NCBI RefSeq assembly: GCF_004122035.1
Contig: NZ_SAXA01000014.1
Span: 44,155 to 108,154, forward strand
Reading direction: 5' to 3'
Source of the DNA: Ancylomarina salipaludis
GTDB taxonomy: Bacteria > Bacteroidota > Bacteroidia > Bacteroidales > Marinifilaceae
DNA: 64,000 nt
Part shown: one piece after another, positions 18,411 to 45,823 of the stretch
Layout: each line of letters starts with the position of its first letter
Numbering within the stretch: the first letter of the stretch is position 1
The notes under the pieces: model-generated
Told to the model about the DNA's origin: nothing
Databases searched by the model: none
What the model saw: the letters and a program-made list of their open reading frames with translations, nothing else
Made by a program: the position numbers and the translations under genes

Positions 18411-19616
18411 ATGAAATCCCTGTTTTTATTGATTTTTAGTTTTTTGTTTGTTTTTCAGTCTTATGCTCAGGAGGAATCGCAGTGGCGCGGACCGAACCGA
18501 GATGGGAAATATCCAGCGAAAAACCTGTTGAAAAAGTGGCCTGCGACTGGTCCAAAATTGTTATGGCATTATGATGATTTAGGTGACGGACATGCTTCAG
18601 CAACTGTGACTGATACACGGATTTATACAGCTGGCGTTGATGGAGAACAGGGGTTTGTTATAGCCTTTGATTATTCTGGTAAGCAGTTGTGGAAAACAAA
18701 TTACGCAAAAGAATGGTTGGAAAATTATGATGGCGTGAGAGGGACTCCCTTACTTGATCATGGGATGCTCTATATCATGAGTGGTCATGGTGAATTGGTC
18801 GCATTGTCGGCAAATTCAGGTGAAATAATATGGTCTAAAAACATGTTGACTGAATACGGAGGTAGAAACCTTCGTTTTGGAATGACTGAGAATCTTCTGA
18901 TTGAAGGGGATAAGATCTTTTGTACGCCTGGCGGTGAAGAGGTTAATATTATCGCATTGAATAAAAAGACAGGCGATTTGATCTGGAAAACAAAAGCAAA
19001 TGGCGAAACATCGGCATATTGCTCGCCTTTGTTTGTAAAATTAGCAAATCGCTCTTTGATGGTCACTCATACTGCTAACTCAATTGTTGGAATTGATACA
19101 CAAAACGGTGAGATGATGTGGCGTTTTGAGCATAAAAATCAATACAGTATTCATCCCAATACGCCGCTTTATCAGGATGGTATGTTGTTTTGCTTTAGTG
19201 GATATGGCAAAGGCGGAGTTATGCTGCAATTATCAGCTGATGGTCGCTCGGTAAAGGAAGTCTGGAGAAATGCATCTTTGGATAGTCAGATGGGTGGCGC
19301 TGTTTTACTTGATGGGAAAATTTATGGCTCAGGTCATACCAATCGTCAGTGGTTTTGTCTGGATTGGAAAACAGGACAAGAAATTTATTCTTCAAAGGCT
19401 TTGGCAAAGGGAAATGTGATTTATGCTGATGGCATGTTGTATTGTTACGGCGATAACGGAGAGATTGGATTAGTTGATGTGAAAGATGGGGCTTTTAATA
19501 AAGTGAGTTCGTTTCGCGTGCCATACGGAAGTAAACAGCATTGGGCACATTTGGTCATTCATAAGAATAGGCTATATGTGCGTCATGGAAATGCTTTTAT
19601 GGTGTATGAAATTTAA
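18411..19616 (+). CDS. Secreted PQQ-like (BamB-type) beta-propeller protein, paralogue 1
   Basis: I choose the ATG at 18411, which gives a clean signal peptide (MKSLFLLIFSFLFVFQSYAQ); a TTG two codons earlier is less likely. The mature part begins with WRGPNRDG, then carries repeated blades of the form GxxxALxxxxGExxW (for instance GELVALSANSGEIIW and IIALNKKTGDLIW), typical of seven- or eight-bladed PQQ_2 propellers. The known family motifs show a scaffold, not an active site, and no PQQ-dehydrogenase disulphide pair is visible. The proteins at 19822 and 36766 are close paralogues with the same layout. It is the first gene of the island and probably acts in the periplasm or outside the cell. 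Confidence 0.85.
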   Translation: MKSLFLLIFSFLFVFQSYAQEESQWRGPNRDGKYPAKNLLKKWPATGPKLLWHYDDLGDGHASATVTDTRIYTAGVDGEQGFVIAFDYSGKQLWKTNYAKEWLENYDGVRGTPLLDHGMLYIMSGHGELVALSANSGEIIWSKNMLTEYGGRNLRFGMTENLLIEGDKIFCTPGGEEVNIIALNKKTGDLIWKTKANGETSAYCSPLFVKLANRSLMVTHTANSIVGIDTQNGEMMWRFEHKNQYSIHPNTPLYQDGMLFCFSGYGKGGVMLQLSADGRSVKEVWRNASLDSQMGGAVLLDGKIYGSGHTNRQWFCLDWKTGQEIYSSKALAKGNVIYADGMLYCYGDNGEIGLVDVKDGAFNKVSSFRVPYGSKQHWAHLVIHKNRLYVRHGNAFMVYEI

Positions 19617-19725
19617 GCTTAAATCGAGTTTGAAAATGATCTTAATAAGACTCAATCTTAATACTATTCTTCTTTAGATTAATTAATGATTAAATCTTGT
19701 TAATCAAATGTTAACGAGCTTATTG

Positions 19726-19759
19726 TTTGTTTAATTAACTGATAGAATTAATAGGTTTG
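19726..19759 (+). promoter_or_regulatory. Candidate promoter before the second propeller gene
   Basis: TTTG at 19726-19729 and TAGGTTTG at 19752-19759 match both Bacteroidota promoter elements exactly, with 22 bases between them. The predicted transcript would have a leader of about 55 bases. This gap of 205 bases is the longest in the island, so a second transcription start here is reasonable. Confidence 0.6.
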
Positions 19760-19821
19760 AAAGACCTGTTCCCAGAAAATTAATAGTTCATTCTGATAAT
19801 TAAGAAAATAAAAAAATAAAA

Positions 19822-21069
19822 ATGAAACGACTGCTTTTTTTAGGCTTTGCCGCGATTACAATTTTTACTCAATGTAACTCTCCAAAACAAAAAAGTGAAT
19901 GGCGGGGCCCGAATCGAACCGGTGTTTATAATGAAACAGGTTTGTTAAAAGAGTGGCCTAAAGAAGGGCCTCAAATGCTTTGGTCTTTAACAGATATTCC
20001 CAAGGGATATTCTTCGGTTGCTGTGGTTGGCGATCTTGTTTATTTGACGGGAATTAAGGATTCCATGGATGTTTTGTTGGCTGTTGATATAAAAGGACAA
20101 ATAAAGTGGGAGGTTCCTTATGGTCGTTGTTGGGATAGTACCTTCCCGGATAGTCGATGTACGCCAACTATTGAAAATGACCGAATTTATCTTTCAAGTG
20201 GGAAAGGCGATTTGGCTTGTGTAAATGCTCTGACAGGAGAGATTTTCTGGCAGGTAAAAGCCAGTGAAAAATTTGAAGGAACATATGGCGAGTGGGGAAT
20301 CGCAGAATCTCTTCTTTTATATAAGGATTTGGTTTTTTATACCCCTTGTGGTGAAAAAACGACGATGATCGCTTTGAATAAGAATACGGGAGAAACGGTT
20401 TGGGAATCTAAAAGTTTGAAAGATAAACCTGCCTATGTTTCTCCACTGCTGGTTGAGCGCAATGGTAAGAATTTGATTGTAACCGTAACAGAGAATCATA
20501 TTATAGGGGTGAATCCTGAAAATGGTGAAATGCTTTGGACTTTCGACTATGCAGCATATGCGGGTGGAGAATGGAAAGCAAACATCCAGACAAATACACC
20601 ACTTTATTACAAGGGGAAAATATTTGTGACTAATGGCTATGATCACAAGTCTGTTATGCTGAATTTGAGTGAAGATGCCTCTTCGGTGAAATTGGCATAT
20701 GTTGATTCTTTAATGGATGTGCATCATGGTGGTGCCGTTCGTTTAGGTGATTATATATACGGTTCTAACTGGATACACAATCGAATGGGAAAATGGGTTT
20801 GTCTAGAATGGGAAACCGGTAAGCCAATGTATGAGACAGAATGGGAGAATAAAGGTTCTATTATTTCAGCTGAGGGTTTGTTGTATTGCTATGACGAAAA
20901 AGGTGGCAATATCGCTCTTTCAAAAGCAAGTCCTGATGGTTTTAAAGTGATCAGTTCCTTTAAAGTACCTTTAGGGAAAGGGCCCAATTGGTCGCATTTG
21001 GTGATTAAAGATGGTGTGATGTATGTCCGTCACGAAGATGCCTTAATGGCTTATAATATAAAAGCATAG
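19822..21069 (+). CDS. PQQ-like beta-propeller lipoprotein, paralogue 2
   Basis: The 415-residue protein has a lipoprotein signal with the lipobox Cys at residue 18 (ITIFTQC), so it should be anchored by lipid and may face the periplasm or the outside. It then has WRGPNRTG and propeller blades such as GDLACVNALTGEIFW and MIALNKNTGETVW. It shares the layout of the first island gene, including the TPCGEKTTMIALNK segment (TPGGEEVNIIALNK there) and the final MYVRHEDALMAY (LYVRHGNAFMVY there). The function is unknown; the propeller is likely a binding or assembly platform. Eleven bases separate it from the next gene. Confidence 0.85.
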   Translation: MKRLLFLGFAAITIFTQCNSPKQKSEWRGPNRTGVYNETGLLKEWPKEGPQMLWSLTDIPKGYSSVAVVGDLVYLTGIKDSMDVLLAVDIKGQIKWEVPYGRCWDSTFPDSRCTPTIENDRIYLSSGKGDLACVNALTGEIFWQVKASEKFEGTYGEWGIAESLLLYKDLVFYTPCGEKTTMIALNKNTGETVWESKSLKDKPAYVSPLLVERNGKNLIVTVTENHIIGVNPENGEMLWTFDYAAYAGGEWKANIQTNTPLYYKGKIFVTNGYDHKSVMLNLSEDASSVKLAYVDSLMDVHHGGAVRLGDYIYGSNWIHNRMGKWVCLEWETGKPMYETEWENKGSIISAEGLLYCYDEKGGNIALSKASPDGFKVISSFKVPLGKGPNWSHLVIKDGVMYVRHEDALMAYNIKA

Positions 21070-21080
21070 TCTGAGAAGTA

Positions 21081-22508
21081 ATGAGCAAAAAATCCCTAAA
21101 TATTCTTTTTCTGTTTTTGACTGTTGGTGTCGCGATTTCCATATTTATTATTTGGTTGCGTTACGATCCGGTTCAGGATTTCAAAGCAAGTGTTCCTGGC
21201 TTGGACAATCGTCCTGAGGCTGGAAGCGAGGCTGTGGATGAGGTGAAAATTGGAGAGAAATTCAAATTGTACACTGAATACACTTCAAATTTAAAGGGGA
21301 AATGGACTCAGTTTAGGGGAGCTGATTCAGATAATATATCAAAAGAGAAAATCAAACTTGTCGATAAAATTGGACCTGAACCTAAGATCATGTGGCAACA
21401 TGATTTGGGTGAAGGGCATGCGGCACCTGTTGTTTACAATGGAAAGGTGTATTTGCTTGATTACGATGAGGTGAAAAAAGCAGATGCCTTGCGTTGTTTT
21501 TCGTTGGAAACAGGAGAGGAAATCTGGAAACGATCCTATAAAGTTCATGTGAAAAGAAACCATGGCATGTCGAGAACCATTCCTGCAATTAACGATAAGT
21601 ATATTGTGAGTATGGGGCCGCGTTGTCATGTGATGTGTGTAAATTCGGAAACAGGAGACTTTTTGTGGGGACTCGATTTAGTGAAGGATTATCAATCTGA
21701 GGTTCCTTTTTGGTATACAGGTCAGTGTCCTGTGATTGATAATAATGTTGCCATAATTGCTCCCGGAGGTAAGGCTTTATTAATGGGTATTGATTGTGCT
21801 ACAGGTAAAGTGCTATGGGAAACGCCAAATCCGGATGGATGGAAAATGTCTCATTCTTCGGTGATGCCAATGGTTTTGGATGGAAAAAAGATGTGGGTTT
21901 ATGCTGCAGTTGGTGGCATTTGTGGCGTATCAGCCCAAGGCGATGATTTAGGACAAATCCTTTGGAAAACAAAAGACTTTTCACCCTCTGTTGTTGCGCC
22001 GTCTCCACTGATTTATGATGATGGTAAATTCTTTATGACTGCCGGATATGGGGCAGGAGCTGCACTCTTTCAAGTGAAAAAAACGGGTGAAACTTATCAG
22101 GTAGAAACCCTTCAGCAATACAAACCTAAGGATGGGATGGCATCCGAACAACAGACACCACTTTTATATAAAGGTCGGATGTTTACCATACTTCCGAAAG
22201 ATGCCGGTGCTATGCGAAATCAGTTTGTCTGTTGTGATCCGAATGACTGTACCAAAATATTATGGACCAGTGGAAAGACCGATCGTTTTGGATTAGGTCC
22301 TTATTTAGTGGCTGATGGCAAGTTTTTTATCCTGAAAGATGATGGGGAATTAACGATTGCCAAAGCTTCAACTGAGAGATTTGAAATTTTGGATAAGGTG
22401 AAAATTCTTGACGGGCACGATGCCTGGGGGCCTATGGTTATAACCGATGGACGATTGCTGATGCGAGATTCGAAACACATGCTTTGTGTTGATTTGCGTG
22501 CAAATTAA
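21081..22508 (+). CDS. Membrane-anchored PQQ-like beta-propeller protein
   Basis: The 475-residue protein has one amino-terminal membrane helix (about 6-25) followed by a linker of some 55 residues and a propeller that begins with WTQFRGADSDN, the shared entry motif of these proteins in a diverged form. Blades include LRCFSLETGEEIW, VMCVNSETGDFLW and LMGIDCATGKVLW. It is richer in Cys than its paralogues (GPRCHVMC, FVCCDPNDC), which could mean disulphides or a metal site. It probably projects from the inner membrane into the periplasm. The spacing of 11 and 25 bases to its neighbours fits one transcript. Confidence 0.82.
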   Translation: MSKKSLNILFLFLTVGVAISIFIIWLRYDPVQDFKASVPGLDNRPEAGSEAVDEVKIGEKFKLYTEYTSNLKGKWTQFRGADSDNISKEKIKLVDKIGPEPKIMWQHDLGEGHAAPVVYNGKVYLLDYDEVKKADALRCFSLETGEEIWKRSYKVHVKRNHGMSRTIPAINDKYIVSMGPRCHVMCVNSETGDFLWGLDLVKDYQSEVPFWYTGQCPVIDNNVAIIAPGGKALLMGIDCATGKVLWETPNPDGWKMSHSSVMPMVLDGKKMWVYAAVGGICGVSAQGDDLGQILWKTKDFSPSVVAPSPLIYDDGKFFMTAGYGAGAALFQVKKTGETYQVETLQQYKPKDGMASEQQTPLLYKGRMFTILPKDAGAMRNQFVCCDPNDCTKILWTSGKTDRFGLGPYLVADGKFFILKDDGELTIAKASTERFEILDKVKILDGHDAWGPMVITDGRLLMRDSKHMLCVDLRAN

Positions 22509-22533
22509 GATTAGACTTTGAAAATATGAGACT

Positions 22534-23499
22534 ATGAAGAACAAGCTAACATTAATATTTTCCGTCGTAATTCTTTTGCTTTTAGTGGCATTAATTGCGG
22601 GTGATTTGTTCTTAAAAAAGCCAAATCTTCAAAAGAACATTTATGAATATGATCTGAAGGAATTGAGAAAGGTTGATCCAACTTTAATTACCTATAGAGA
22701 GTCTTTAAATTTTGCCATTAATTCGGAATCAGTTTATGGAGTCGCTGTGGATACTGCAGACCAAATTTATGTAAGTGGAAATGATAAGCTCTGGATCTTT
22801 GATTCGCAAGGGAAATTGCAATCGAGTATGAAAGTTCGAGGGGATGCTCACGCGCTGTGTGTTTCCGAGTCGGGAAATATTCTTTTGGGAGTTGGGAACA
22901 GAATTGATGTCCGCAGACCGGATGGCAGCCTGAATAATAGTTTTCAGATTAAAGGTGTGAGAGCTTATATCAGTAGTTTGGCTGAAAAAAATGGACGGGT
23001 TTATATTGCCGATGCCGGACAGAAAATCGTTCATCAGTACACTATCGAAGGTGAAAAAATCAATCTTATTGGGGCTAAAAACCTTGAAAAAGGGATTCGT
23101 GGCTTTGTGATTCCAAGTCCGTACTTTGATCTTTTGTTGGGACGTCAAGGTGAACTTTGGGTTGTGAATCCGGGGCGACATGCCTTTGAGGCCTATAATA
23201 ATGACGGGGATTTGATTTCGACATGGGAGCGAACTTCTATGCAGCTTGATGGCTTTGGAGGTTGTTGCAATCCCAGTCATATAGCCATGCTGTCGGATGG
23301 TTCATTTGTGACCAGTGAAAAAGGGCTAGAGAGAATAAAAATACATCTCCCATCCGGTGATTTTAAATCGGTAGTTGCTGCACCTAATCAATTCGATGAG
23401 GGCACAAAAGGTTTGGATTTGGCAGTTGATTCTCAGGATAGAATTATTGTTTTGGATCCGTCGCGTAAGATGGTTCGTGTTTTTGAACTCAAGGAATAA
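22534..23499 (+). CDS. Membrane-anchored NHL-type propeller protein with a GGCCNP motif
   Basis: The 321-residue protein has an amino-terminal membrane helix (5-24) and then NHL-like repeats (VYGVAVDTADQIYVSGNDKLWIF is one, another is GRVYIADAGQKIV), so it should be an extracytoplasmic six-bladed propeller. Its most striking feature is a double Cys, C244 and C245, in FGGCCNPSH, which sits where a loop would reach the propeller face. Such a pair might bind metal or take part in electron or disulphide exchange, but this is inference. It is immediately upstream of the Tat/ferredoxin genes and so probably works with them. Confidence 0.78.
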   Translation: MKNKLTLIFSVVILLLLVALIAGDLFLKKPNLQKNIYEYDLKELRKVDPTLITYRESLNFAINSESVYGVAVDTADQIYVSGNDKLWIFDSQGKLQSSMKVRGDAHALCVSESGNILLGVGNRIDVRRPDGSLNNSFQIKGVRAYISSLAEKNGRVYIADAGQKIVHQYTIEGEKINLIGAKNLEKGIRGFVIPSPYFDLLLGRQGELWVVNPGRHAFEAYNNDGDLISTWERTSMQLDGFGGCCNPSHIAMLSDGSFVTSEKGLERIKIHLPSGDFKSVVAAPNQFDEGTKGLDLAVDSQDRIIVLDPSRKMVRVFELKE

Positions 23500-23552
23500 A
23501 GCTGTTTTAGAGATAAATTAACTCGGTATTAGTCGAGTCAAAATATAAGAAA

Positions 23553-23759
23553 ATGGATAGAAGACGTTTTTTGCATCAAATTGGCAGAGGAACAATTTTA
23601 AGTGCATTGGCTATTTTTTCAGGGACGATGATTTATCGAAATCTAAACTCAGAAAGAGAGACCTGTGACTTCGATTTTGTTTGTCGTAATTGCAAAAAGG
23701 TTAAAACCTGTGCTTTGCCTGATGGGATTGACTTTAAGAAGAAAAATTCGATACAATAA
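23553..23759 (+). CDS. Small Tat-type protein with four cysteines
   Basis: This is a 68-residue protein. It starts MDRRRFLHQIGRGTILSAL, a twin-arginine signal, with a hydrophobic stretch to about residue 28. The mature part is only about 40 residues and has four Cys at 38, 44, 47 and 53 (CDFDFVCRNCKKVKTC), enough for one iron-sulfur cluster or a zinc site. The Tat signal suggests that it folds around its cofactor before export. It has no stop-codon or frame problem and is followed 11 bases later by another Tat protein, so I believe it is a real gene. No family name comes to mind. Confidence 0.75.
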   Translation: MDRRRFLHQIGRGTILSALAIFSGTMIYRNLNSERETCDFDFVCRNCKKVKTCALPDGIDFKKKNSIQ

Positions 23760-23770
23760 TTTGTAGAAGA

Positions 23771-24343
23771 ATGGATAATAAAGGAAAAAAAGATAGAAGA
23801 GAGTTTATAAACACCTGTTTCCGGTTTGCGGCAGGAGCCACTTTAGTTGGTGTGACTGGTGTTTTAGCCCATAAAACGGTATCCGGGAATACGCTTTGGC
23901 AAATTGACACGACAAAGTGTACACAATGCGGGCGCTGTGCCACCTCTTGTGTGATGACCCCATCGGCAGTGAAATGTATTCATGTGTACGACATGTGTGG
24001 GTATTGCGATTTGTGTGGTGGCTATTTGCGACCTAATGTGAAGACTATTACCACAGGAGCTGAAAACCAACTATGTCCTACCGGCGCGATTAAACGAAAG
24101 TATGTTGAAGATCCATTTTTTGAATACGAGATAATCGAGGACTTGTGTATTGGTTGTGGCAAATGTGTGAAAGGTTGTGGGGCTTTTGGAAATGGTTCGC
24201 TTCAATTGCAGGTAAGTCATAATTTGTGTGTGAATTGCAACCAGTGTGCCATTGCACGGGATTGTCCTTCGGGAGCTTTTTCGCGCGTGCCAGCAGATGA
24301 GCCCTATAAATTTTCAGGCTTCAAAAAAGAAAAGAAAGGCTAA
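23771..24343 (+). CDS. Tat-exported polyferredoxin (multiple 4Fe-4S clusters)
   Basis: The 190-residue protein has an RR-type signal (DRREFINTCFRFAAGA, near 8-23) and a hydrophobic core to about 33. The mature part holds 17 Cys: CxxCxxCxxxC at 50-60, a group at 69, 76, 79, 82 and 102, CxxCxxCxxxC at 126-136 and CxxCxxC plus C165 at 153-165. That is enough for about four 4Fe-4S clusters, as in NapG/MauM-like periplasmic ferredoxins. The proposed role is carrying electrons in the periplasm between the polyferredoxin encoded next and an unknown acceptor. Confidence 0.87.
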   Translation: MDNKGKKDRREFINTCFRFAAGATLVGVTGVLAHKTVSGNTLWQIDTTKCTQCGRCATSCVMTPSAVKCIHVYDMCGYCDLCGGYLRPNVKTITTGAENQLCPTGAIKRKYVEDPFFEYEIIEDLCIGCGKCVKGCGAFGNGSLQLQVSHNLCVNCNQCAIARDCPSGAFSRVPADEPYKFSGFKKEKKG

Positions 24344-24373
24344 CCCAATTCAAAATCTTAAATAGATTTCTAA

Positions 24374-25675
24374 ATGTCAGAAATTTTAAAATACATATCA
24401 CGAACCTGGAATATAAAGAAGCTTGTCGCTATTCTGTCAATGTTTATTTTATTCTTGACTTCAGGTTTTCCACTTTTTGCACAACAACAGCGATTTCCCA
24501 AACCGGAATTTGAGTCCGGTTACACCCAACCAGTAACTTCAATGCCTGAAGCGCGTTCTGATTTTTTCGCTATTTTCGATGTTCTAGTGCTTATTGTGGC
24601 TTTATCATTAATATCCTGGCTGATTTTAAAGAAGCGATCAAGACGAGGCGTTCTGGCTGTATCGGTATTTTCAATTTTATATTTTGGTTTTTTTCGTGAA
24701 GGCTGTATTTGTTCGGTTGGATCCTTGCAAAATGTGACATTGGCACTTTTTCAACCAGAGTACAGTATCCCGATATCTGCTTTGGCATTTTTTGTTATTC
24801 CACTTGTTTACACCTTATTTTTCGGAAGAACCTTTTGTGCTGGTGTTTGTCCATTAGGAGCCATTCAGGATGTGCTTTTATTGCGTCCGGTAACAATGAA
24901 ACGATGGTTGCAAAAAGTTTTAGGTTTAATACCCTATATCTATTTAGGTTTGTCGGTTTTATATGCTGCAACAGCAACTGATTTTATCATTTGCAGATAC
25001 GATCCTTTTGTAGGGATTTACCGATTTGATGCCACTTTTTTCATGTTCGCTATCGGAGCCATTTTCCTTCTGTTAAGTATTTATGTTGCCCGTCCTTATT
25101 GTCGGTTCTTTTGCCCTTATGGCGTACTTCTGAATTGGATGAGTCGTTTTTCGAAACATCATCTGACTATAACGCCTAATAAATGTATTCAGTGCAGACT
25201 TTGTGAAGATTCTTGCCCATTGGGAGCCATAAATAAGCCCGTTCCGGTTAAGGTGATGGAAGACAGACAATCAGCAACAAAAAGATTTATAAGCTTGAGT
25301 TTGATTATTCCATTGCTTATGGTTTTAGGTGGTTGGACACTTTCAAACTTTCATGAGAATTTGGCTAAGGTGAATCCTAAAGTGCGATTGGCAAATGAAC
25401 TCATGTCGTTTAAACCTGATGTGATGTTGCCTTCTGTTGAAATTGAAGCCTTTAAATCTGCCGGAACTCCCCTTACAGAATTGTATTCGCAGGCGGCAAT
25501 TATTATTGAGCAGTTTTATATAGGAGCCTGGATTTTGGGTGCCTTTTTAGGTTTGGTTTTCGGACTGACCTTATCAAGCTTATCGGTATTTAAATATCGT
25601 GAGGATTACACACCTGATAAGGGAGAATGTGTGAGCTGTGCCCGATGTTTAAAATATTGTCCGGTTGAGAAATAA
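24374..25675 (+). CDS. Membrane-bound polyferredoxin of the NapH/NosR/RdxA type
   Basis: The 433-residue protein has a signal or first helix, several membrane segments and iron-sulfur motifs. These are CIC at 111-113, FCAGVCP at 154-160, a lone C207, YCRFFCPYG at 242-250, and a full 4Fe-4S motif CxxCxxCxxxCP at 271-282. A last CVSCARCLKYCP stands almost at the carboxyl end. The CxxxCP pairs at membrane edges are the hallmark of NapH, NosR and RdxA, which pass electrons across the membrane. No FMN-binding domain is present, unlike NosR. It probably links cytoplasmic donors to the Tat ferredoxin. Confidence 0.88.
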   Translation: MSEILKYISRTWNIKKLVAILSMFILFLTSGFPLFAQQQRFPKPEFESGYTQPVTSMPEARSDFFAIFDVLVLIVALSLISWLILKKRSRRGVLAVSVFSILYFGFFREGCICSVGSLQNVTLALFQPEYSIPISALAFFVIPLVYTLFFGRTFCAGVCPLGAIQDVLLLRPVTMKRWLQKVLGLIPYIYLGLSVLYAATATDFIICRYDPFVGIYRFDATFFMFAIGAIFLLLSIYVARPYCRFFCPYGVLLNWMSRFSKHHLTITPNKCIQCRLCEDSCPLGAINKPVPVKVMEDRQSATKRFISLSLIIPLLMVLGGWTLSNFHENLAKVNPKVRLANELMSFKPDVMLPSVEIEAFKSAGTPLTELYSQAAIIIEQFYIGAWILGAFLGLVFGLTLSSLSVFKYREDYTPDKGECVSCARCLKYCPVEK

Positions 25676-25707
25676 TCTTTCATTTGATTTAGGAATTAGA
25701 TAAGAAT

Positions 25708-27585: not shown

Positions 27586-27613
27586 CAGATTCCGATTACT
27601 TGAAAAAGAAACA

Positions 27614-29959: not shown

Positions 29960-30001
29960 AAAATGTTCAATTTAAAATCAGTAATCTGATAGATATCGAT
30001 T

Positions 30002-36400: not shown

Positions 36401-36703
36401 AGAAACATGCTCGAGCGGAGACAGGAATTGGCCTTATTAAAAGCATTGGGTTTTGAACAAAAAAGCATTTTCAGATTGGTAATGATTGAGAACTTATTTT
36501 TATTAGTTGTCGGCTTATTGAGTGGTGCTTTAGCTGCTTTGGTAGGCATGTTACCTTGCTTGTTTTCCGATGCTTTTAGTATGCCGGTAGCTTTTGTTTT
36601 ACAGGTGACACTAGCTATTCTGTTTTTTGCTTTGATATCGATTTATATTCCGGCAAAATTGGCTATGAAACAGAACCTGATTGAGAGTTTGAAAAATGAA
36701 TAA
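33419..36703 (+). CDS. FtsX-type ABC permease with duplicated halves (YbbP-like)
   Basis: The start is the ATG at 33419 (1094 residues); a TTG two codons earlier is less likely. The protein has one amino-terminal membrane helix (about 18-38), a large extracytoplasmic domain to about 500, a cluster of membrane helices (near 505-700), a second large outer domain, and a final group of helices from about 985. Two FtsX-like permease modules in one chain recall YbbP/MacB-type proteins, which move lipoproteins or hydrophobic molecules out of the inner membrane rather than using a channel. Its place among redox and terpenoid genes suggests export of a product of the island. Confidence 0.87.
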   Translation: MNLYRYILRSLWFFKKQHLAVLLGTLISTAVLTGALIIGDSVKYSLHQLLNMRLGEIEFAMPTGDRFVRAELAKDIAIDMGIKVEPVLSVKGLAIESESQKRANGVQVYGIDQAFSGFSEKVLPNLKKDEVAISENLAEKLGLVPGNEFLLRVEKANLVPVNAPFVSDEDQSLALRLSVKTILDDKQLGRFSLRSNQVAPYNIFMSRAFLAQEMELEGKVNLLLASGRGNSDLTEISLNESLAKKWQLADAGLQLKELKDQSVFELSSDRIFIDEPIANEIQKMALPKDALITYFVNSLESKTGKTPYSFVTAIENEDMFSDIRTDRIHISSWLARDLSLKIGDSLKLDYFVIGPLRSLEEESRDFLVSGIFSEKTKKLDQAMMPSFPGLSNAGSCNDWEAGIPIDFSRIRDKDEAYWKKYKGTPKAMIGMSSALNMWSNKYGQYTAFRFHKDALTLPLLKKEILKRLHPSMLNLTFISVRNQGENAANNMVDFGELFLSLSFFIIAAGILLTLLIYALNLENRNQETGILKGLGFNDRKILKIRFFESLPTIIFGGILGSLIGIAYNQAIIWGLNSVWQDVVRTNMIQLNVQVQTLIVGAVIGMLIALLSVYWVSRRHLRKSVVGLIQNTNPGSNLKKKKSLSLLSAGFAFIISLLIAVYAFVSSDILNAELLMSSGGLLMIACFAAFYYFLILNDEQNRTSVPSLVELAIKNAARNKGRSLSTIVLLALGCFSVMITGANRKTFVDTEDSPQSGTGAYNYWIETSLPVLNDINTDEGKEKLGLAEDSLMTTADFVQFRSLDGDDASCLNLNQVQRPRVLGFKIGQFDKRSAFSFATLHKAVNPNHPWLALNQDFGPDVIPAYADQTVIVWGLKKAVGDTLQYKDEFGKTMKLLLIGGLNNSIFQGNILISDQNFQSHYPSVSGSKLILVDGINKEGIQMIEDQLLDYGPQVQKASERLAAFYSVENTYLNMFMLLGALGVMIGTLGLGIVLLRNMLERRQELALLKALGFEQKSIFRLVMIENLFLLVVGLLSGALAALVGMLPCLFSDAFSMPVAFVLQVTLAILFFALISIYIPAKLAMKQNLIESLKNE

Positions 36704-38046: not shown

Positions 38047-38889
38047 ATGACTAAGAAAATATTTATTTGTGGATGTGAGAAAGATGGTAAGATTGAGAAG
38101 AAATCTGTAGAAAGATTGATTCAAAGTCTTGAGGAGAAGAATATTGGCTACACCTATATCGAAGATCTTTGCGGAAGTGTACTCAAAACACCTGAAGCTT
38201 TAGAGGATTTGTTTACTGCTGAAGATGCGCTTGTTTTTGGTTGTCAGTCTCGTGCCATGCAAAATCTAATTGATAACAGCGGAAAGAAATCGCAAGAGAA
38301 TAAAACGACCTATTATCATATCGATGATGAGGATGGCAATAAGCTTGTTGAAACGGTAAAAACGGATAATTCAAAAGCCTTAAAAATAAAATATTCAGAT
38401 TCCTGGAAACCCTGGTATCCTGTTATAGATTACGAGCGTTGTAATGGTTGCAGAAAATGCCTAAACTTTTGTCTTTTCAGTGTGTATTCTGTTGAAGATG
38501 ATGGATCGGTTGTGGTATCAGCTTCGGCTAATTGTAAGGATATGTGTCCGGCTTGTGCTCGTGTTTGTCCGCAAAATGCGATTATTTTCCCCAAACATGC
38601 TGAAAGTCCTATCGATGGTGGAGAAGGTGAGATGTTATCAGGAGATAATGTTTTGGAGCAAATTCAGAACGACGATGTGTATTCGGTTTTAAGTGCTCGC
38701 CGCAATAATTTTAAAGTGTCTCTTTTGAAAAAGGAGCAATTGAAAATGGCTGAGGAAGAACGAAAAATCTGTAGTACCAAAGAAGAACCACAAGATAAGG
38801 CTTGCGATTGTGACTGTAATTGTAAAACTGAAACCGAGTCGGACTGTGCATGTAAAGATGCAGATTCGGATAGAAATTGTTGCTGCTAA
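38047..38889 (+). CDS. Cytoplasmic 2[4Fe-4S] ferredoxin with cysteine-rich tail
   Basis: The 280-residue protein starts with FICGCEKDGKI, a segment like the Cys-containing amino part of HdrA-type proteins. It then has two ferredoxin Cys groups (132, 135, 138 and 142; 163, 167, 170 and 174) and a highly charged tail. The last 30 residues carry nine Cys (253, 255, 257, 259, 267, 269 and 278-280) in CDCDCNC, CAC and CCC groups. The tail looks like a metal-binding or disulphide element, not a cluster site. The protein likely feeds electrons to the adjacent radical SAM enzyme, whose reaction needs a reduced ferredoxin. Confidence 0.8.
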   Translation: MTKKIFICGCEKDGKIEKKSVERLIQSLEEKNIGYTYIEDLCGSVLKTPEALEDLFTAEDALVFGCQSRAMQNLIDNSGKKSQENKTTYYHIDDEDGNKLVETVKTDNSKALKIKYSDSWKPWYPVIDYERCNGCRKCLNFCLFSVYSVEDDGSVVVSASANCKDMCPACARVCPQNAIIFPKHAESPIDGGEGEMLSGDNVLEQIQNDDVYSVLSARRNNFKVSLLKKEQLKMAEEERKICSTKEEPQDKACDCDCNCKTETESDCACKDADSDRNCCC

Positions 38890-38904
38890 TAAGAGAACTT
38901 GAAT

Positions 38905-40098
38905 ATGATTTTAAAGTTAGGAAATAGAATAATGCGCCAGGTGGACTTTCGATTACTTTGGAAGATTGCTTACAACCTGGGTTGGAAGGGGATGCGCACT
39001 GTGGCAAAACATAAGAAACTATTGAAGAAGGGTGAGTTATTTCCTGCTTTTTTAATGATTTCATTAACCGATAATTGCAACCTGAATTGTCAGGGCTGTT
39101 GGGTGAGTATCAATAATAAATCCAAAGGAATGGATGTTGAAACCCTCAATAATGTGATTGAATCGGGAAAGAAAAAGGGATCGTATTTCTTCGGACTTTT
39201 GGGCGGTGAACCTTTGATGTATCCCCATTTGTTTGATGTGATAGAGAAGCATTCTGATTGCTATTTTCAGCTTTTTACAAACGGAACCTTATTGTCCGAC
39301 GAATATGCTCAGCGTATGAGACGTTTGGGCAATGTTTCGCCTTTGATAAGTGTTGAAGGTTTGAAAGATGTAAGTGATGTTCGCCGGGGGGCCAATGATG
39401 TTTTCGGCCGAACGATGAAAGGCATCGAAGCTTCTGTGAATAATAAGCTCTTTACTGGAGTTGCGACTTCGGTTTGCAAATCGAATTTTAAGGAATTGGT
39501 CAGTGAGGATTTTGTGAATGCTTGTATCGAAAAAGGGGTTCATTATCTGTGGTACTATATTTACCGACCTGTGGGAGCACGGCCAACAACAGAATTAGCA
39601 CTTTCTGAAGAAGAAATTTTGGAACTGAGACAGTTTATGGTTGATATTCGGCTTAAGGCTCCACTGATGATTATCGACACCTATTGGGATGAAAAAGGAA
39701 AGGCATTATGTCCCGGAGCCATTGGTTTGAGTCATCATATTAATCCTTTTGGTGATATCGAATTTTGTCCACCCATTCAGTTTGCTAAAGAAAATATTGG
39801 GAATGGAAAAGATTTGGATCGGGTGATTGAGGATTCTGATTTTATTAGAAATATGCGGACTCGAATCAGTAACAAAACCCAGGGCTGTATTTTACTTGAC
39901 GATCCGGAATATTTAAACACAATATTAAAAGACTCTGGTGCTTATGATTCGTCTAACAGGAATGCGAGTTTTCAGGAGTTAAGCCAAATGCGCCCATGTG
40001 CGGGGCATCATATCCCCGGTAAGGAAATTCCGGAAAAAAGTTTTGTGTATCGGTTTGCCAAGAAATATTCCTTTTTTGGATTTGGAGCCTACGGGTAG
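38905..40098 (+). CDS. Radical SAM protein with SPASM-like tail
   Basis: The ATG at 38905 gives 397 residues; a TTG two codons earlier is possible but weaker. The CNLNCQGC motif (C58, C62 and C65) holds the radical SAM 4Fe-4S cluster, and FGLLGGEPL is the family's glycine-rich SAM-binding part. The carboxyl half has further Cys (in ALCPGAIG, EFCPPIQFA, GCILLDD and RPCAGHH) like the auxiliary-cluster region of SPASM proteins. The substrate is unknown; being followed by prenyl synthase and cyclase genes, it may act on an isoprenoid, but a peptide substrate is not excluded. Confidence 0.85.
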   Translation: MILKLGNRIMRQVDFRLLWKIAYNLGWKGMRTVAKHKKLLKKGELFPAFLMISLTDNCNLNCQGCWVSINNKSKGMDVETLNNVIESGKKKGSYFFGLLGGEPLMYPHLFDVIEKHSDCYFQLFTNGTLLSDEYAQRMRRLGNVSPLISVEGLKDVSDVRRGANDVFGRTMKGIEASVNNKLFTGVATSVCKSNFKELVSEDFVNACIEKGVHYLWYYIYRPVGARPTTELALSEEEILELRQFMVDIRLKAPLMIIDTYWDEKGKALCPGAIGLSHHINPFGDIEFCPPIQFAKENIGNGKDLDRVIEDSDFIRNMRTRISNKTQGCILLDDPEYLNTILKDSGAYDSSNRNASFQELSQMRPCAGHHIPGKEIPEKSFVYRFAKKYSFFGFGAYG

Positions 40099-40179
40099 AT
40101 TTATAAGATGTAGATGCAATAATGCGAGATTGAAGAGAGGAGACGTTTATAATATTTGAACCATTTAGCCATTTGTGAA

Positions 40180-41781
40180 ATGATATTAAAAGATAATAAT
40201 CCTTCAGGAGGATTAGGAAACAGTTTGCCTCAATCGCCTGAAAAACTAAAACAAATTCGCGATTTAATTTGTGATTATACGGCTGAAAGGGAACTTATTC
40301 CTCCTTTACAAGAGGAAGAGGTGATTTTTCATTCAGGGGAATTGATTAAAAAACATCCCGAGCTTTTCTTATATCAAAAGCTTTTGGCAGTCATGATCAA
40401 CAATCATTCGTGGCGTGATATTGTTTCCGGTATTCCCTTTAACCGCCGCATATTATTACTTCCCAAATGCATTGCTCATGCGACAGAATGTCCGGCTCAA
40501 TTCGACGAATTGGGTTTGCTCTGCGAACAGTGTGGTAAGTGTGACATTGCTGAGATTACAACTCAGGCTGATGAATTGGGGTATCATACACTTGTTAGTG
40601 AAGGGACAACAACGGTCAGTACGCTTTTGGGATCGGGCAAGGTTGAATGTGTGATAGGCGTAGGCTGTTTGCATTCTTTCGAGAAATCGTTTCCCTTGGC
40701 TGTAAAAGAAGCCGTTCCTTCAATGGCAATCCCATTGTATAATAACGATTGTAAGAACTCGAAGGTAGATAAGTTATGGCTTGACGAAATTTTGCCAATT
40801 CGCAAAGAAAGCAATTGGTATGGTTGGATCAATATTGATAGCCTGAGGTCGGATATAAATTCGTGGTTTGAAAAAGATCAGCTTGCACTCCTTATTGATG
40901 GGGAGGATGAAAGTTCTCAAATTGCAATTGATTGGTTAGCACAAGGTGGAAAACGCTGGCGACCTCTGATTATGCTTGCCGTATACAAAGCACTGATGGG
41001 ATCAGAAGCTGTAATGGATGATTGCATTCAGAAACTGGCCGTCTCTATTGAGTGCTTTCATAAGGCTTCATTGGTTCACGATGATATTGTTGATGAAGAT
41101 CATGAACGTTACGATCAACCCACTCTTCACAGGCAATACGATACGCCTGTTGCGATAAATGTGGGGGATTTAATTTTGGGTTTTGGTTATCAGTTTATTG
41201 CAGAGTCAGGCGCGAAGCATATTCGGAAATTATTAAAAATTGCTTCGTATGGTCATCGCGATTTAGCAATAGGGCAAGGCGAAGAACTCCTGTGGCGAAA
41301 AAATAAAGCTCTTTTATCTGTTGAGGATATTTTGAAAATTTTTAGTTTGAAAACCTCACCAGCTTTTGAAGTCGCTTTGCAGTTTGGTGCGATTATTTCA
41401 GATGCCGGGGACGACGTGATGCAAGTTTTGACAACTTACAGTTCTGCACTGGGAATTGCTTATCAGATTAAAGATGATTTGGACGATTTTAATCTGGAGA
41501 ATATCGATAATGCTTTTAATACGATTCAGCCTTCATTGGTAACAGCTATTATTAACCGGGAACATCCCGAAAAAATGAAGGCTTGGTTTAAGGATTTTCA
41601 GAATGGTAATGACTTCAGCAAAAAAGAAATTTGGAAGCAAACTGAAATTCGTGAAGGTATAAAGGAGGCTGAGCAAATGCTTGAGAATTATAAGTTAAAA
41701 GCCCTAAGCAGTATTGTAGAACTGAAAAGCCCATCCCTAAAAATATTATTGACTCGTCTCTTGAATAAAATCCTGAACTGA
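40180..41781 (+). CDS. DUF116-polyprenyl diphosphate synthase fusion
   Basis: I use the ATG at 40180 (533 residues); a TTG at 40156 would add eight residues and has an AGGAG 13 bases upstream, so it stays open. Residues 85-195 match DUF116: LLLPKCIAHATEC, LLCEQCGKCD and GVGCLHSFEK carry its Cys groups. Residues 245-525 form a trans-prenyltransferase with both aspartate-rich sites, DDIVD at 301-305 and DDLDD at 432-436, so it should condense isopentenyl diphosphate into a chain. Fusion of these two parts is rare. The last base overlaps the start of the next gene, which suggests coupled translation. Confidence 0.85.
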   Translation: MILKDNNPSGGLGNSLPQSPEKLKQIRDLICDYTAERELIPPLQEEEVIFHSGELIKKHPELFLYQKLLAVMINNHSWRDIVSGIPFNRRILLLPKCIAHATECPAQFDELGLLCEQCGKCDIAEITTQADELGYHTLVSEGTTTVSTLLGSGKVECVIGVGCLHSFEKSFPLAVKEAVPSMAIPLYNNDCKNSKVDKLWLDEILPIRKESNWYGWINIDSLRSDINSWFEKDQLALLIDGEDESSQIAIDWLAQGGKRWRPLIMLAVYKALMGSEAVMDDCIQKLAVSIECFHKASLVHDDIVDEDHERYDQPTLHRQYDTPVAINVGDLILGFGYQFIAESGAKHIRKLLKIASYGHRDLAIGQGEELLWRKNKALLSVEDILKIFSLKTSPAFEVALQFGAIISDAGDDVMQVLTTYSSALGIAYQIKDDLDDFNLENIDNAFNTIQPSLVTAIINREHPEKMKAWFKDFQNGNDFSKKEIWKQTEIREGIKEAEQMLENYKLKALSSIVELKSPSLKILLTRLLNKILN

Positions 41782-42752
41782 TGAAAAACTGTAATCAGGA
41801 GATACTAAAAGCTCTTTTAAAAGCAAAGGATTTGTTAAGTGATGAGGCTTTGCGTGAGATCAGATCTTTTGTTAGTTCTCAAAAATGTGACTCCGGTGGC
41901 TTTAAAGATAGAGCAGGAAAACCTGATCTGTATTATTCTGTTTTTGCTTACACTTTGGCTTTTGTCTATGATATTGAACTGGATATTGAGAAAGAATTCA
42001 AATTTTTAGAATCCTTTCAGGATGGGTCTGTTTTGGATTTGGTACATGCGGTTTGCTACATTCGATCTTATCTATTGCTGCAAGTCATTCAGCAAAAACG
42101 AAAGTTTGGGTTTAAACCTGATGTTAGGAATGTTGATGGTTTCTTCGGAAAGATTCTGATGAAAGGTTTGATAAAAAAGGTGAAAAAAGATTGTTCGGTT
42201 TTGTTTGAGTTGATTGAAACTTACAAATCTAAAGATGGAGCTTATAATCACAATAAAAAACAGGCTGAACAGGCGACAGTTTATGCTTCATTTCTTGTTT
42301 GGACGCTTTTTCAGGATTTAAATGAAGAAGAATCTGTTTTAAACCGAATCACAAATCAACTTTATACTTTAAAGTGTGATGATGCTTCATTTGCCAATGA
42401 TAGTGCTTCAAAAACGGGTGTGACTTCGGCAACTGCAGCCGGTTTAATTATGACAAGTAATCAGAATCATAATTTTGATGGTTCTATGTTCTATTTAAAG
42501 CAGAATTACACGTCTCGGGGCGGGTTTAAGGCTGCTTCGGATTTGCCTATTGCAGATCTGCTTTCTACAAGTACAGGATTATTAGCTCTTTATATGGCTG
42601 GAGAGAATTTACAAAATCTGTCTGAAAAATCTATCGATTTTATTAATTTGCATTGGGATGAGTCAGGAGGCTTTTTTGGAAGTATCGCCGATATGACATG
42701 TGATGTTGAGTATACATATTATGCTCTTTTGGGTATTGGGATACTAATCTAA
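41781..42752 (+). CDS. Prenyltransferase/squalene oxidase-repeat protein, GGTase-beta-like
   Basis: The 323-residue protein is built of alpha-alpha repeats with GGF motifs at DSGGFKDRAGKPDL, SRGGFKAASDLPIAD and ESGGFFGSIADM, as in the beta subunits of protein prenyltransferases and in terpene cyclases. It lacks the DxDD acid of cyclases. The final DVEYTYYALLGIG resembles the active-site region of GGTase beta, though the Zn-binding Cys is not clear. It could be a scaffold, a prenyl-binding partner or a diverged transferase. The ATG overlaps the preceding stop by one base. Confidence 0.75.
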   Translation: MKNCNQEILKALLKAKDLLSDEALREIRSFVSSQKCDSGGFKDRAGKPDLYYSVFAYTLAFVYDIELDIEKEFKFLESFQDGSVLDLVHAVCYIRSYLLLQVIQQKRKFGFKPDVRNVDGFFGKILMKGLIKKVKKDCSVLFELIETYKSKDGAYNHNKKQAEQATVYASFLVWTLFQDLNEEESVLNRITNQLYTLKCDDASFANDSASKTGVTSATAAGLIMTSNQNHNFDGSMFYLKQNYTSRGGFKAASDLPIADLLSTSTGLLALYMAGENLQNLSEKSIDFINLHWDESGGFFGSIADMTCDVEYTYYALLGIGILI

Positions 42753-42765
42753 TTCGAGTGACTTT

Positions 42766-44520
42766 ATGATTGAAAAAAGGAAACAACTTTTTCAGAACTT
42801 AGAACAAAAAATCCTTTCGTTAAGAAATGAAAACAACCTGTGGACAGGGCGATTGTCAAGTAGTGCTCTGTCAACTTCGCTTGCCGTTTTTGCTTTATGG
42901 AAATACGATAAACAAAAATATCAGCAACAAATAACCCAGGGTCTAAATTGGCTGGTTGCTAATCGCAATGCCGATGGCGCTTGGGGTGATACCATCAGAA
43001 GTCAGAGTAATCTGAGTACAACATTGATAACTTGGGCAACTTTCTCTATTGTCGAGAAGGATGAGAAATTTCTGGAAACGATTCGTGATGCAGAAGCCTG
43101 GTTGAAAAGACGAGTGGGAAGCTTAGAGCCGGAAAAGCTTAGTCAAGCCATACTGGATCATTATAAAAGTGATCAAACCTTTTCTGTACCTATACTGGCT
43201 ATGTGTGCCATATCGGGTCGATTGGGAGAAAATGGATGGACTTTGGTTCCTCAATTGCCTTATCATTTGGCTATTTTTCCACATCGTTTGTTTCGTTGGC
43301 TTAGACTTTCGGTGGTGAGTTATGCTATTCCTGCATTGATTGCCATTGGTCTTGTGAAAAGTCAACATTCGAAAAAGAACATGTTCAGACGTGCGGTTAG
43401 AGCTATCTGCCGAAAACGAGTTTTAGATGTACTTAAGGCTAAACAGCCTGATAATGGCGGATTTCTTGAGGCAACACCTTTAACGGCTTTTGTTTTGATG
43501 AGCATGGTTCATGCTGATTATCAAGATTTAGATGTTTCAGAAAAAGCAGCTCAGTTCTTGAGTCACTCAATTCGTGAAGATGGCAGTTGGCCAATTGATA
43601 CGAATCTTTCAACATGGGTGAGTAGCTTGTCTTTAAATGCTTTGAGTGATGCTTCTCTGAGTTTGATTGACAGTCAATCGGATATGCAGGCGAATTTATT
43701 GGAGCAACAATATAAAAAGATACATCCTTTTACCCGAACAAAACCCGGAGGTTGGGCATGGACTAATTTGCAAGGTGGCGTTCCCGATACGGATGATACT
43801 TCCGGAGCTCTTATTGCTTTACACCGATTAAGCAAGGATAAAGGGCTAGTTTTAGAGGCTGCCCGTAATGGTATCAGTTGGTTAATCAGTTTACAAAACA
43901 AAGATGGAGGTTTTCCTACTTTTTGCAAGGGATGGGGAAAATTACCTTTTGATTGTTCTTGCCCTGATATTTCAGCTCATGCCATTAAAGCTTTTGTGAT
44001 TTGGAGAGATGAATTTGATAAGAAGTTTCAAAAGAAAATTAACAGGAGTCTGAAAAAAGCCGTCAGCTATTTGAAGAAAACACAATTGCAGGATGGTTCT
44101 TTTCAACCCCTATGGTTTGGAAATGAACTTGGAGAACATCACCAGAATCCGGTTTACGGGACTTCTATTGTTTTATATGGACTTGCTGAACTGCAGAAAT
44201 CCGGTTATGAAGGCCTCAATACGATGATTGAAAAGGCGGTTCGTTTTTTATCAATGACTCAACACCACCATGGTGGTTGGGGAGGAGATAAAGATTTACC
44301 ACCGAGTATTGAAGAAACCTCTTTGGCATTAAGAGCGATGGCTGCTTGTGGTAAGGAGAGCCTTGCACATAGAGCCGCAGAATGCTTGATGCAGATTATT
44401 CCGGAAAATTTAGATGAGATAAAAGCAACACCTATTGGCCTTTATTTTGCCTCACTTTGGTATTACGAAGATATGTACCCATTGGTATTTGCTTGTTCGG
44501 CTCTGAAAGAGCTGGATTAA
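42766..44520 (+). CDS. Class II terpene cyclase-like protein with DTDD motif
   Basis: This is a 584-residue member of the squalene-hopene cyclase fold. The acid motif DTDDT at 341-345 corresponds to the DxDDT that protonates the substrate in squalene-hopene and related cyclases. QW-like repeats are present (DGAWGD near 70-75, DGSWPID near 272-278, GGWAW near 328-332, and HGGWGGD near the end). No squalene synthase gene (hpnCDE or sqs) is in the window, so the substrate might be squalene made elsewhere or another polyprene, perhaps the product of the fusion protein two genes upstream. It follows the repeat protein by 13 bases. Confidence 0.85.
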   Translation: MIEKRKQLFQNLEQKILSLRNENNLWTGRLSSSALSTSLAVFALWKYDKQKYQQQITQGLNWLVANRNADGAWGDTIRSQSNLSTTLITWATFSIVEKDEKFLETIRDAEAWLKRRVGSLEPEKLSQAILDHYKSDQTFSVPILAMCAISGRLGENGWTLVPQLPYHLAIFPHRLFRWLRLSVVSYAIPALIAIGLVKSQHSKKNMFRRAVRAICRKRVLDVLKAKQPDNGGFLEATPLTAFVLMSMVHADYQDLDVSEKAAQFLSHSIREDGSWPIDTNLSTWVSSLSLNALSDASLSLIDSQSDMQANLLEQQYKKIHPFTRTKPGGWAWTNLQGGVPDTDDTSGALIALHRLSKDKGLVLEAARNGISWLISLQNKDGGFPTFCKGWGKLPFDCSCPDISAHAIKAFVIWRDEFDKKFQKKINRSLKKAVSYLKKTQLQDGSFQPLWFGNELGEHHQNPVYGTSIVLYGLAELQKSGYEGLNTMIEKAVRFLSMTQHHHGGWGGDKDLPPSIEETSLALRAMAACGKESLAHRAAECLMQIIPENLDEIKATPIGLYFASLWYYEDMYPLVFACSALKELD

Positions 44521-45116: not shown

Positions 45117-45166
45117 AAGGTCTGAATTTATTAAACTAGTTTATTTTTTTCGCTAATGTGGTCTCG

Positions 45167-45174
45167 TATGTTTG
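45167..45174 (+). promoter_or_regulatory. Promoter -7 element before the YceI gene
   Basis: TATGTTTG matches TAnnTTTG exactly and stands about 29 bases before the chosen start. No clear TTTG is seen at the right distance, only T-rich sequence. It suggests that yceI has its own start even though it follows the regulator gene closely. Confidence 0.55.
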
Positions 45175-45202
45175 CAGTGTTGAAACATTAAAATACAGAG
45201 AT

Positions 45203-45823
45203 ATGAAAAAAATAGGATTTTTTATATTAATGGGCTTCATGCTCATTAATAAAGTTGATGCAAAACTACCGGTTAAGAATGTAACCGCGTTCAAAGTTCA
45301 GGCAAAAGAAAGTAAGGTTTATTGGACTGGGAAGAAAGTTTCAGGCAAACATACAGGTGAAATCTCGCTTAAGAATGGTGAGATTGTTTTAAATGGTGAA
45401 AAGTTTGTCAGTGCAAACATTAATATTGATATGTCTTCGATTGTTTGTACTGATCTTAGTAATGAGGAATGGAACAAGAAATTGATCGGACATTTAAAAT
45501 CGGATGATTTTTTTTCAACTGAAAAATTTCCGGAGTCAAATTTTAAAACAACTCAGTTTATTAAAATTCAGAATGCCAAATCTGATGAAGCCAATTATAC
45601 TGTTAAAGGGATTTTGAGTATCAAAGGAATTAGCCAAGAAATCAGTTTTCCTGCAAAAATAGATTGGAAAGATAATGAACTTTGGGTTGATGCATCACTA
45701 TCTGTAGATAGGACCAAATGGGATATTAAGTATGGCTCTGGTTCTTTTTTTGATGATTTAGGTGACAATATGATTCACGATAAGTTTGAAATTAAATTTC
45801 AACTGGTTTCAAGAGTGAATTGA
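45203..45823 (+). CDS. YceI-family periplasmic polyisoprenoid-binding-type protein
   Basis: The ATG at 45203 gives 206 residues with a signal peptide (MKKIGFFILMGFMLINKVDA). The mature part has the YceI pattern: a WTGKKVSGKHTGEISLKNG segment, FPESNFKTTQF in the centre and VDRTKWDIKYGSGSFFDDLGD near the end. YceI proteins are lipocalin-like barrels, and one structurally studied member binds a long polyisoprenoid. Here it lies just after a prenyl synthase/cyclase set, which makes a lipid-carrier role plausible. It ends at a bidirectional terminator. Confidence 0.88.
   Translation: MKKIGFFILMGFMLINKVDAKLPVKNVTAFKVQAKESKVYWTGKKVSGKHTGEISLKNGEIVLNGEKFVSANINIDMSSIVCTDLSNEEWNKKLIGHLKSDDFFSTEKFPESNFKTTQFIKIQNAKSDEANYTVKGILSIKGISQEISFPAKIDWKDNELWVDASLSVDRTKWDIKYGSGSFFDDLGDNMIHDKFEIKFQLVSRVN

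Follow-up and report, generated by a model that had tools for sequence, protein, structure and literature searches.

Most of what is known about electron transfer across the inner membrane concerns quinones, hemes and flavins. One described route, the flavin-based extracellular electron transfer of Listeria, combines an NADH-fed envelope electron path with its own isoprenoid genes and relies on FMN-binding or flavin transferase domains. We analysed a 64,000-nucleotide stretch (hereafter the window) of one contig of the Ancylomarina salipaludis genome (4.15 Mb, 99.98% complete, 55 contigs), in which positions 18411-45823 hold an island that, by analogy, likewise joins an NADH-fed envelope route to isoprenoid genes. 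In contrast to the Listeria system, none of the 20 island proteins has a Pfam match to an FMN-binding or flavin transferase domain, and the isoprenoid of the island is predicted to be cyclised. The island contains two conserved modules: module B (18411-36703), with propellers, an NHL protein, a Tat ferredoxin, a membrane polyferredoxin, an NADH module and an ABC exporter, and module A (38047-44520), with a ferredoxin, a radical SAM enzyme, a DUF116-polyprenyl synthase fusion, a single toroid and a class II cyclase. Because the two modules co-occur in three genome samples and are repeatedly adjacent in distant genomes, they very probably form one system. The specific mechanism that we favour, in which a dedicated cyclised isoprenoid serves the envelope electron route, has in our judgement slightly less than an even chance of being correct.

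Several parts of the island have described relatives. Its NuoE-NuoF fusion has, like StnAB and HydBC as described in PMC10482914, a NuoE-like part, a second thioredoxin-like domain, an FMN/NADH site and a C-terminal ferredoxin domain, and its third subunit, like StnC, combines NuoG-like and GltD-like parts. According to that text, the third subunit of the Stn complex passes electrons from NADPH to the StnAB-type core, and the HydBC-type module is reversible. Unlike the Stn, Nfn and Hyd bifurcating complexes, the host has a third subunit without the NADPH lobe, and these subunits are encoded together with membrane and Tat ferredoxins and propellers. The polyferredoxin is, like the NapH/MauN-type membrane ferredoxins, a membrane Fe-S protein with Fer4_5 motifs; it differs from them in scoring 55.5 bits against a cut-off of 213 and in being accompanied by the Tat ferredoxin and the propellers. 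Compared with the squalene-hopene cyclase of Alicyclobacillus and the drimenyl diphosphate synthase of Streptomyces showdoensis, the island cyclase is about 20% identical and differs in its gene neighbourhood, which includes a DUF116-polyprenyl synthase and a radical SAM enzyme. A DUF116::polyprenyl synthetase fusion (Psta_0175) and a proposed electron-transfer role for DUF116 are given in PMC5898192, whose passages on Psta_0175 do not mention a cyclase, a radical SAM enzyme, the cassette or module B. The terpene clusters treated in PMC8692599 are different from this one. No description of the joint system was found in the open-access literature, where the DUF116 fusion alone has already been published.

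The open reading frame (ORF) list of the window places 20 co-directional genes at 18411-45823 (27.4 kb), separated by gaps of at most 271 bases and mostly of less than 100. An earlier note, made from the sequence alone, had described nineteen co-directional genes with mostly short gaps; the common direction and the short gaps held, and the number was corrected to 20. The ORFs and families that it had named (propellers, NHL, NuoEF/NuoG-like, ABC, radical SAM, fusion and cyclase) were borne out by Pfam and NCBIfam scans, in which NuoEF-like, NuoG-like, ABC ATPase, FtsX permease, radical SAM, DUF116, polyprenyl synthase and SQHop_cyclase matches exceeded the Pfam cut-offs. The true starts of the ABC ATPase and of a Crp-type gene are likely 32729 and 44550, respectively, rather than those of the longest ORFs. 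Conservation is given as alignment rows, which are tblastn matches without stops, identical rows being counted once, that cover 80% of the query for module A and 85% for module B (75% for the NHL protein and propeller 4). The host's own copy (L155) was omitted from the cyclase and toroid row counts, the protein of the window being counted as one row. The genes of the two modules are as follows.

18411-19616 (+), module B: propeller 1, with a signal peptide, PQQ_2/BamB-like
19822-21069 (+), module B: propeller 2, lipoprotein type
21081-22508 (+), module B: propeller 3, anchored in the membrane, with conservation of many polar residues across 39 rows
22534-23499 (+), module B: NHL propeller, membrane-anchored, Cys244-Cys245 pair in 40/40 rows
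23771-24343 (+), module B: Tat-exported multi-cluster ferredoxin
24374-25675 (+), marker of module B: membrane polyferredoxin, distant from NapH/MauN
25708-27585 (+), module B: propeller 4, with three N-terminal membrane helices
27614-29959 (+), module B: NuoE-NuoF fusion with C-terminal 2[4Fe-4S], HydBC/StnAB type
30002-31513 (+), module B: NuoG-like/GltD-like subunit without the NADPH lobe
31606-32712 (+), module B: propeller 5, with a signal peptide
32729-33406 (+), module B: LolD/YbbA-type ABC ATPase, start inferred
33413-36703 (+), module B: FtsX-type duplicated ABC permease
36766-37980 (+), junction of the modules: propeller 6, lipoprotein type
38047-38889 (+), module A: 2[4Fe-4S] ferredoxin with an extra N-terminal domain
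38899-40098 (+), module A: radical SAM enzyme, CxxxCxxC in 51/51 rows
40156-41781 (+), marker of module A: DUF116::polyprenyl diphosphate synthase fusion
41781-42752 (+), module A: single alpha/alpha toroid, predicted fold that of a protein geranylgeranyltransferase beta subunit
42766-44520 (+), module A: class II terpene cyclase, DxDD at 341-344 in 44/44 rows

The distribution of the modules was assessed with single genes standing for them, the DUF116 fusion for module A (E-value threshold 1e-60) and the polyferredoxin for module B (1e-40 in the host order, 1e-60 in the phylum of the Kiritimatiellae bacterium G158 and 1e-30 in the phylum of Planctomycetales bacterium ZRK34, G174). Among 149 genomes of the host order, A was found in 7, B in 25 and both in 7, and within the 25 B genomes the cyclase was found in exactly the 7 with A. 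The 194 genomes from the phylum of G158 contained A in 31 cases, B in 28 and both in 26, where 4.5 were expected (p 5e-25). In the phylum of G174 (149 genomes), 33 genomes had A, 16 had B and 9 had both, with 3.5 expected (p 0.002); raising the stringency for A to E below 1e-100 left 20 genomes, 7 of them with B. Squalene/phytoene synthase, used as a control in the 194 genomes, was not associated with A (6/31, expected 6.9). The genomes behind 45 of the best 80 loci with the module A cassette were also examined for the polyferredoxin, which was found at E 1e-25 in 24 of them (8/9 from Marinifilaceae and 16/36 others) and sat among other module B genes in all 16 stretches fetched from cassette genomes. 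Five genomes in the phylum of G158 have A without B (G391, G404, G483, G525 and G528); squalene/phytoene synthase is present in 4/5 of these versus 2/26 with both modules, and the role of the cassette may be different in these five.

The genomic context of the two markers was then compared. In the phylum of G158, both markers lie within 10 kb of one contig in 10 of the 26 two-module genomes, and 8 of those 10 have a single co-directional run of ferredoxin, radical SAM enzyme, fusion, toroid, cyclase, propeller 3, NHL protein, Tat ferredoxin, polyferredoxin, propeller 4 and NuoEF. The run of G367 carries one additional propeller after the cyclase, and in the loci L191 and L192 the modules face each other. 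From the Planctomycetota draw, G224 (phylum of G174) carries the whole run in one contig, as far as the ABC permease. A second genus of Bacteroidales (G023) shows the same order as the run in the phylum of G158, with the markers 8.2 kb apart, and another Bacteroidales genome (G137) has the module junction visible at a contig end. In the host, the markers are 14.5 kb apart with module B first, an arrangement found in 8/9 Marinifilaceae loci, the ninth contig starting at the fusion. The modules are on different contigs in G112 and G100, and the contigs of G016 and G058 are too short to tell. On a tree of the fusion protein, the 5 adjacency rows are scattered and need 5 changes, at least 3 of them forced by starred branches, and the Marinifilaceae and G016 fusions form one clade. 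The tree is weak evidence because 6 of 11 adjacency rows are missing and branches are long; it holds 39 of 98 rows, those 6 having been lost to the coverage filter and G023, G100 and G112 having been dropped with duplicate names.

A number of observations weigh against a single system. The genomes were sampled evenly over groups, and the co-occurrence tests ignore shared ancestry. In the phylum of G158, the markers are on different contigs in 16/26 genomes, G158 itself having them mid-contig in two large ones, and in the complete chromosome of G174 the modules are megabases apart. In the host order, 18 of the 25 B genomes are without A, and a search at E 1e-15 gave no relative of the cyclase in any of the 18; module B can therefore work without the product of A. 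Conversely, 24 of the 33 A genomes in the phylum of G174 are without the B marker (13/20 at A E below 1e-100), and the A marker does not always denote a full cassette, as L182 (G316, one of the 9 joint genomes) has the fusion alone in 20 kb. No NuoG-like gene was found in L194, L195 and L199 between NuoEF and propeller 5, and L193 and L198 have only short pieces of it. Finally, there is no obvious terminal reductase among the genes of the set. These patterns bear on the possibility that the modules have separate functions, co-occurring through a common lifestyle and becoming adjacent through shared regulation or joint transfer. That each module also occurs alone, that the two are often apart when both are present and that the Marinifilaceae and G016 fusions fall in one clade all speak for it, but in the phylum of G158 almost all B genomes also have A (26/28), and the several changes on the fusion tree, weak as this evidence is, also argue against it; we regard it as improbable. 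The proposal of the earlier note that the two halves belong together is strongly supported by the joint occurrence in three samples and the adjacency in distant genomes and weakened by the genomes with one module and by the frequent placement on different contigs. It had named the separate occurrence of the halves in most genomes as what would speak against the proposal, and separation was seen in part, in the form of B-only genomes, A-only genomes and separate contigs.

The proteins of module A point to the synthesis of an isoprenoid. The cyclase resembles squalene-hopene cyclase by sequence and predicted fold; D341, D343 and D344 are present in 44/44 rows and align to the motif of 1gsz, and the predicted two-toroid fold together with DxDD agrees with a class II prenyl-diphosphate cyclase. 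It scores 95 bits against the NCBIfam hopene cyclase equivalog, below the cut-off of 431.1, and the radical SAM enzyme, which has the CxxxCxxC motif, scores 43 bits against HpnH, below the cut-off of 225. An ordinary hopanoid, sterol or carotenoid pathway lying beside respiratory genes would account for the similarity of the cyclase to squalene-hopene cyclase and for the squalene/phytoene synthase family member in 8/24 cassette genomes (16/24 being without one). It is hardly credible given the score of the cyclase and the lack of this synthase (PF00494) in the 99.98% complete host genome G000 and in 24/26 genomes with both modules in the phylum of G158, the control of the synthase search being positive in 7/14. 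For the host, a hopanoid or carotenoid pathway was rejected on the lack of a synthase match, and squalene is an unlikely substrate of the cyclase because 24/26 two-module genomes are without the synthase.

The toroid has the predicted fold of a single alpha/alpha barrel of the protein prenyltransferase beta-subunit type; the fold was predicted because a sequence search of the PDB gave no match at E 1. Protein prenyltransferase beta subunits have a zinc site with a conserved Cys ligand, and the toroid alignment has no invariant Cys column, the best column being Cys in 43/54 rows. Conserved Cys residues are present in the ferredoxin, the radical SAM enzyme and the DUF116 part of the fusion, and the host fusion shares 82% identity with its counterpart in Ancylomarina sp. 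DW003 and 66-68% with those of Labilibaculum and Marinifilum, which makes the host a likely member of the Marinifilaceae. In the biosynthetic half of the proposed system, the polyprenyl synthase would build the isoprenoid chain, the DUF116 part and the module A ferredoxin would handle electrons, the radical SAM enzyme would modify the chain and the cyclase would use a prenyl diphosphate or another prenyl compound, rather than squalene, for ring closure. The single toroid may bind or process the isoprenoid.

HydBC/StnAB-type subunits come closest to the NuoEF fusion of module B, with 9bov_B, 8oh5_B and 9n5u_B as the best PDB matches, and the fusion contains the core of this type, i.e. a thioredoxin-like [2Fe-2S] domain, an FMN/NADH domain and a C-terminal ferredoxin domain; its cluster Cys and nucleotide-site motifs are conserved in at least 90% of 36 rows. 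The host NuoG-like subunit (503 aa) keeps the Fe-S sites and the FAD-type fold without the NADPH lobe, its Pyr_redox_2 match being limited to profile positions 1-111 of 291. Among its relatives, 29/31 complete frames have at most 560 codons, and those of L117 and L119 are shorter still, without the FAD part as well. In Acidobacteria, the L169 and L170 frames have 684-685 codons with an insertion where the NADPH lobe would sit, and that of L174 is also longer and is cut by the end of the stretch. The joint clusters in the phylum of G158 include a full copy in L190, and L196 and L197 are outside coverage. We consider the NuoG-like arm variable because it is full, fragmentary or not found among the joint clusters and differs in length among relatives. 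The similarity of the NADH subunit to ferredoxin-reducing HydBC/StnAB-type modules would also suit an arrangement in which module B is mainly an electron supply for A. Low-potential electrons driven by NADH would then be delivered to the steps of the ferredoxin and of the radical SAM enzyme, and the isoprenoid would be an end product in its own right, for example a membrane lipid. The conserved Cys residues of module A and the presence of B in 7/7 and 26/31 A genomes of two samples agree with such a supply; however, only 9/33 A genomes of the third sample have B, and it leaves unexplained the Tat ferredoxin, the seven propellers, the exporter and the occurrence of B alone in 18/25 host-order B genomes. 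We judge it unlikely.

Six proteins of the island pass the Pfam cut-off for PQQ_2 (BamB-type) and one that for NHL. As the earlier note had stated, the seven propellers are probably exported or anchored in different ways: the sequence and a simple hydropathy scan gave signal peptides for the genes starting at 18411 and 31606, a lipoprotein-type Cys for those at 19822 and 36766, one N-terminal helix for those at 21081 and 22534 (NHL) and three helices for that at 25708. The invariant Cys-Cys pair of the NHL protein is possibly a redox site. In the Tat motif of the exported ferredoxin, Arg9 is present in 42/44 rows and Arg10 in 40/44. Electrons might also flow inward, the propellers oxidising an extracytoplasmic compound and passing electrons through the Tat ferredoxin and the polyferredoxin to ferredoxin and NAD+. 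Propellers 1, 2, 4, 5 and 6 score 28-65 bits against PF01011 (cut-off 26.7; propeller 3 not listed), the propeller domain of PQQ-type dehydrogenases, quinoprotein dehydrogenases are among the weak matches of propeller 1 in the PDB, and the HydBC-type module is described as reversible in PMC10482914. Nevertheless, propeller 1, the only propeller scored against NCBIfam, remains far below the cut-off of the PQQ alcohol dehydrogenase (56.5 versus 480 bits), and its best PDB matches are BamB, so that inward transfer seems quite unlikely to us. A search for PqqC gave 0/16 genomes, the control genomes being likewise silent, which leaves this negative with little weight.

The ABC ATPase scores 244.8 bits against the LolD equivalog, below the cut-off of 307.75. 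In the host order, the module B operon has the order propellers, NHL, Tat ferredoxin, polyferredoxin, membrane propeller, NuoEF, NuoG-like, propeller 5, GT4 glycosyltransferase, ABC ATPase and permease. The GT4 glycosyltransferase lies between propeller 5 and the ABC genes in 14 of the genomes mapped and is absent from that place (31513-33413) in the window and in 6 mapped Marinifilaceae loci. In three Marinifilum loci (L008, L009 and L010), the ATPase is retained and the large ABC permease was not found between it and propeller 6.

Taking the two modules as one system, the HydBC/StnAB-type module would oxidise NADH, possibly together with reduced ferredoxin, and the NuoG-like arm, which has no NADPH lobe in the host, would hand electrons to the membrane polyferredoxin. 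The route would thus run from NADH to the membrane polyferredoxin, the Tat ferredoxin and the envelope propellers, with the isoprenoid as its likely membrane partner or substrate, and the ABC exporter may have the isoprenoid or the lipoprotein propellers as its cargo. The product, the electron direction and the acceptor are what we infer from these assignments. In its fullest form, which we offer tentatively and regard as somewhat doubtful, the proposal is that of an undescribed envelope electron-transfer system shared across several phyla. The system would make a non-quinone isoprenoid of its own, cyclised and radical-SAM-modified, for use as a dedicated membrane redox carrier or cofactor, and would connect a bifurcating-type module that oxidises NADH with a Tat ferredoxin and a cage made of propellers. 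If true, this would point to membrane cofactors or lipids of a new class, in phyla with few characterised envelope systems, and a function for the DUF116 fusion and for a large branch of class II cyclases. Strains of Marinifilum and Labilibaculum make the system testable.

Scanning named genomes with the fusion-protein alignment resulted in at least 534 relatives, of which the best 80 loci were kept. By title, these belong to Verrucomicrobiota, Planctomycetota, Acidobacteriota, Kiritimatiellae, Lentisphaeria, Marinifilaceae and others. ORF clusters around the fusion contain the toroid in 46, the ferredoxin in 42, the cyclase in 38 and the radical SAM enzyme in 35 of the 80 loci; these are undercounts because overlapping and contig-edge ORFs are lost, the fusion itself clustering in 65/80. 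Four planctomycete loci have a different radical SAM protein directly 5' of the fusion, where the usual one was not found:

L012, 2472-4331: alternative radical SAM protein, after the ferredoxin
L013, 2-1417: alternative radical SAM protein, at which the contig starts
L018, 222-1826: alternative radical SAM protein, at which the contig starts
L079, 7975-9963: alternative radical SAM protein, after the ferredoxin

Because a different radical SAM protein takes the same place in these loci, the radical SAM step is suggested to be integral to the cassette. Outside Bacteroidota, four further families accompany module A, mostly upstream: a CobW-type GTPase is present in 25 loci, a small Cys protein that matches no Pfam family in 19, a GcvH-like protein in 14 and a class V aminotransferase, which we read as cysteine-desulfurase-like, in 11. 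One member of each of these four families was scanned against families; the loci with such extras include L017, L021, L025, L028, L031 and L045, among others.

A Crp-type regulator and a YceI protein follow the cyclase in the window and were considered as parts of the system. They were excluded, as only L002 of the 7 Marinifilaceae loci with sequence past the cyclase has them. No additional gene family beyond the known parts was found in at least 3 of 26 gene-order strings (ORFs of at least 80 aa, E 1e-9, fetched stretches only), and two families that surfaced in these strings, u0 and u1, run antisense to known parts. Sigma-70-type promoter matches were at chance level, so no operon limits were taken from them, and Rfam and tRNA searches of the whole window gave no match. 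Directly 5' of propeller 1 is a terminator-like hairpin of 14 pairs (18204-18235, +), a match to the consensus and not proof of a terminator. It is preceded by a gene (17540-18181, +) whose product reads as a small, methyltransferase-like protein carrying paired Cys motifs at the N-terminus; the gene ends before the hairpin and precedes the island. At the beginning of the window (151-2893, -), an apparent tandem pair of FtsZ-type genes ends a cell-wall and division cluster.

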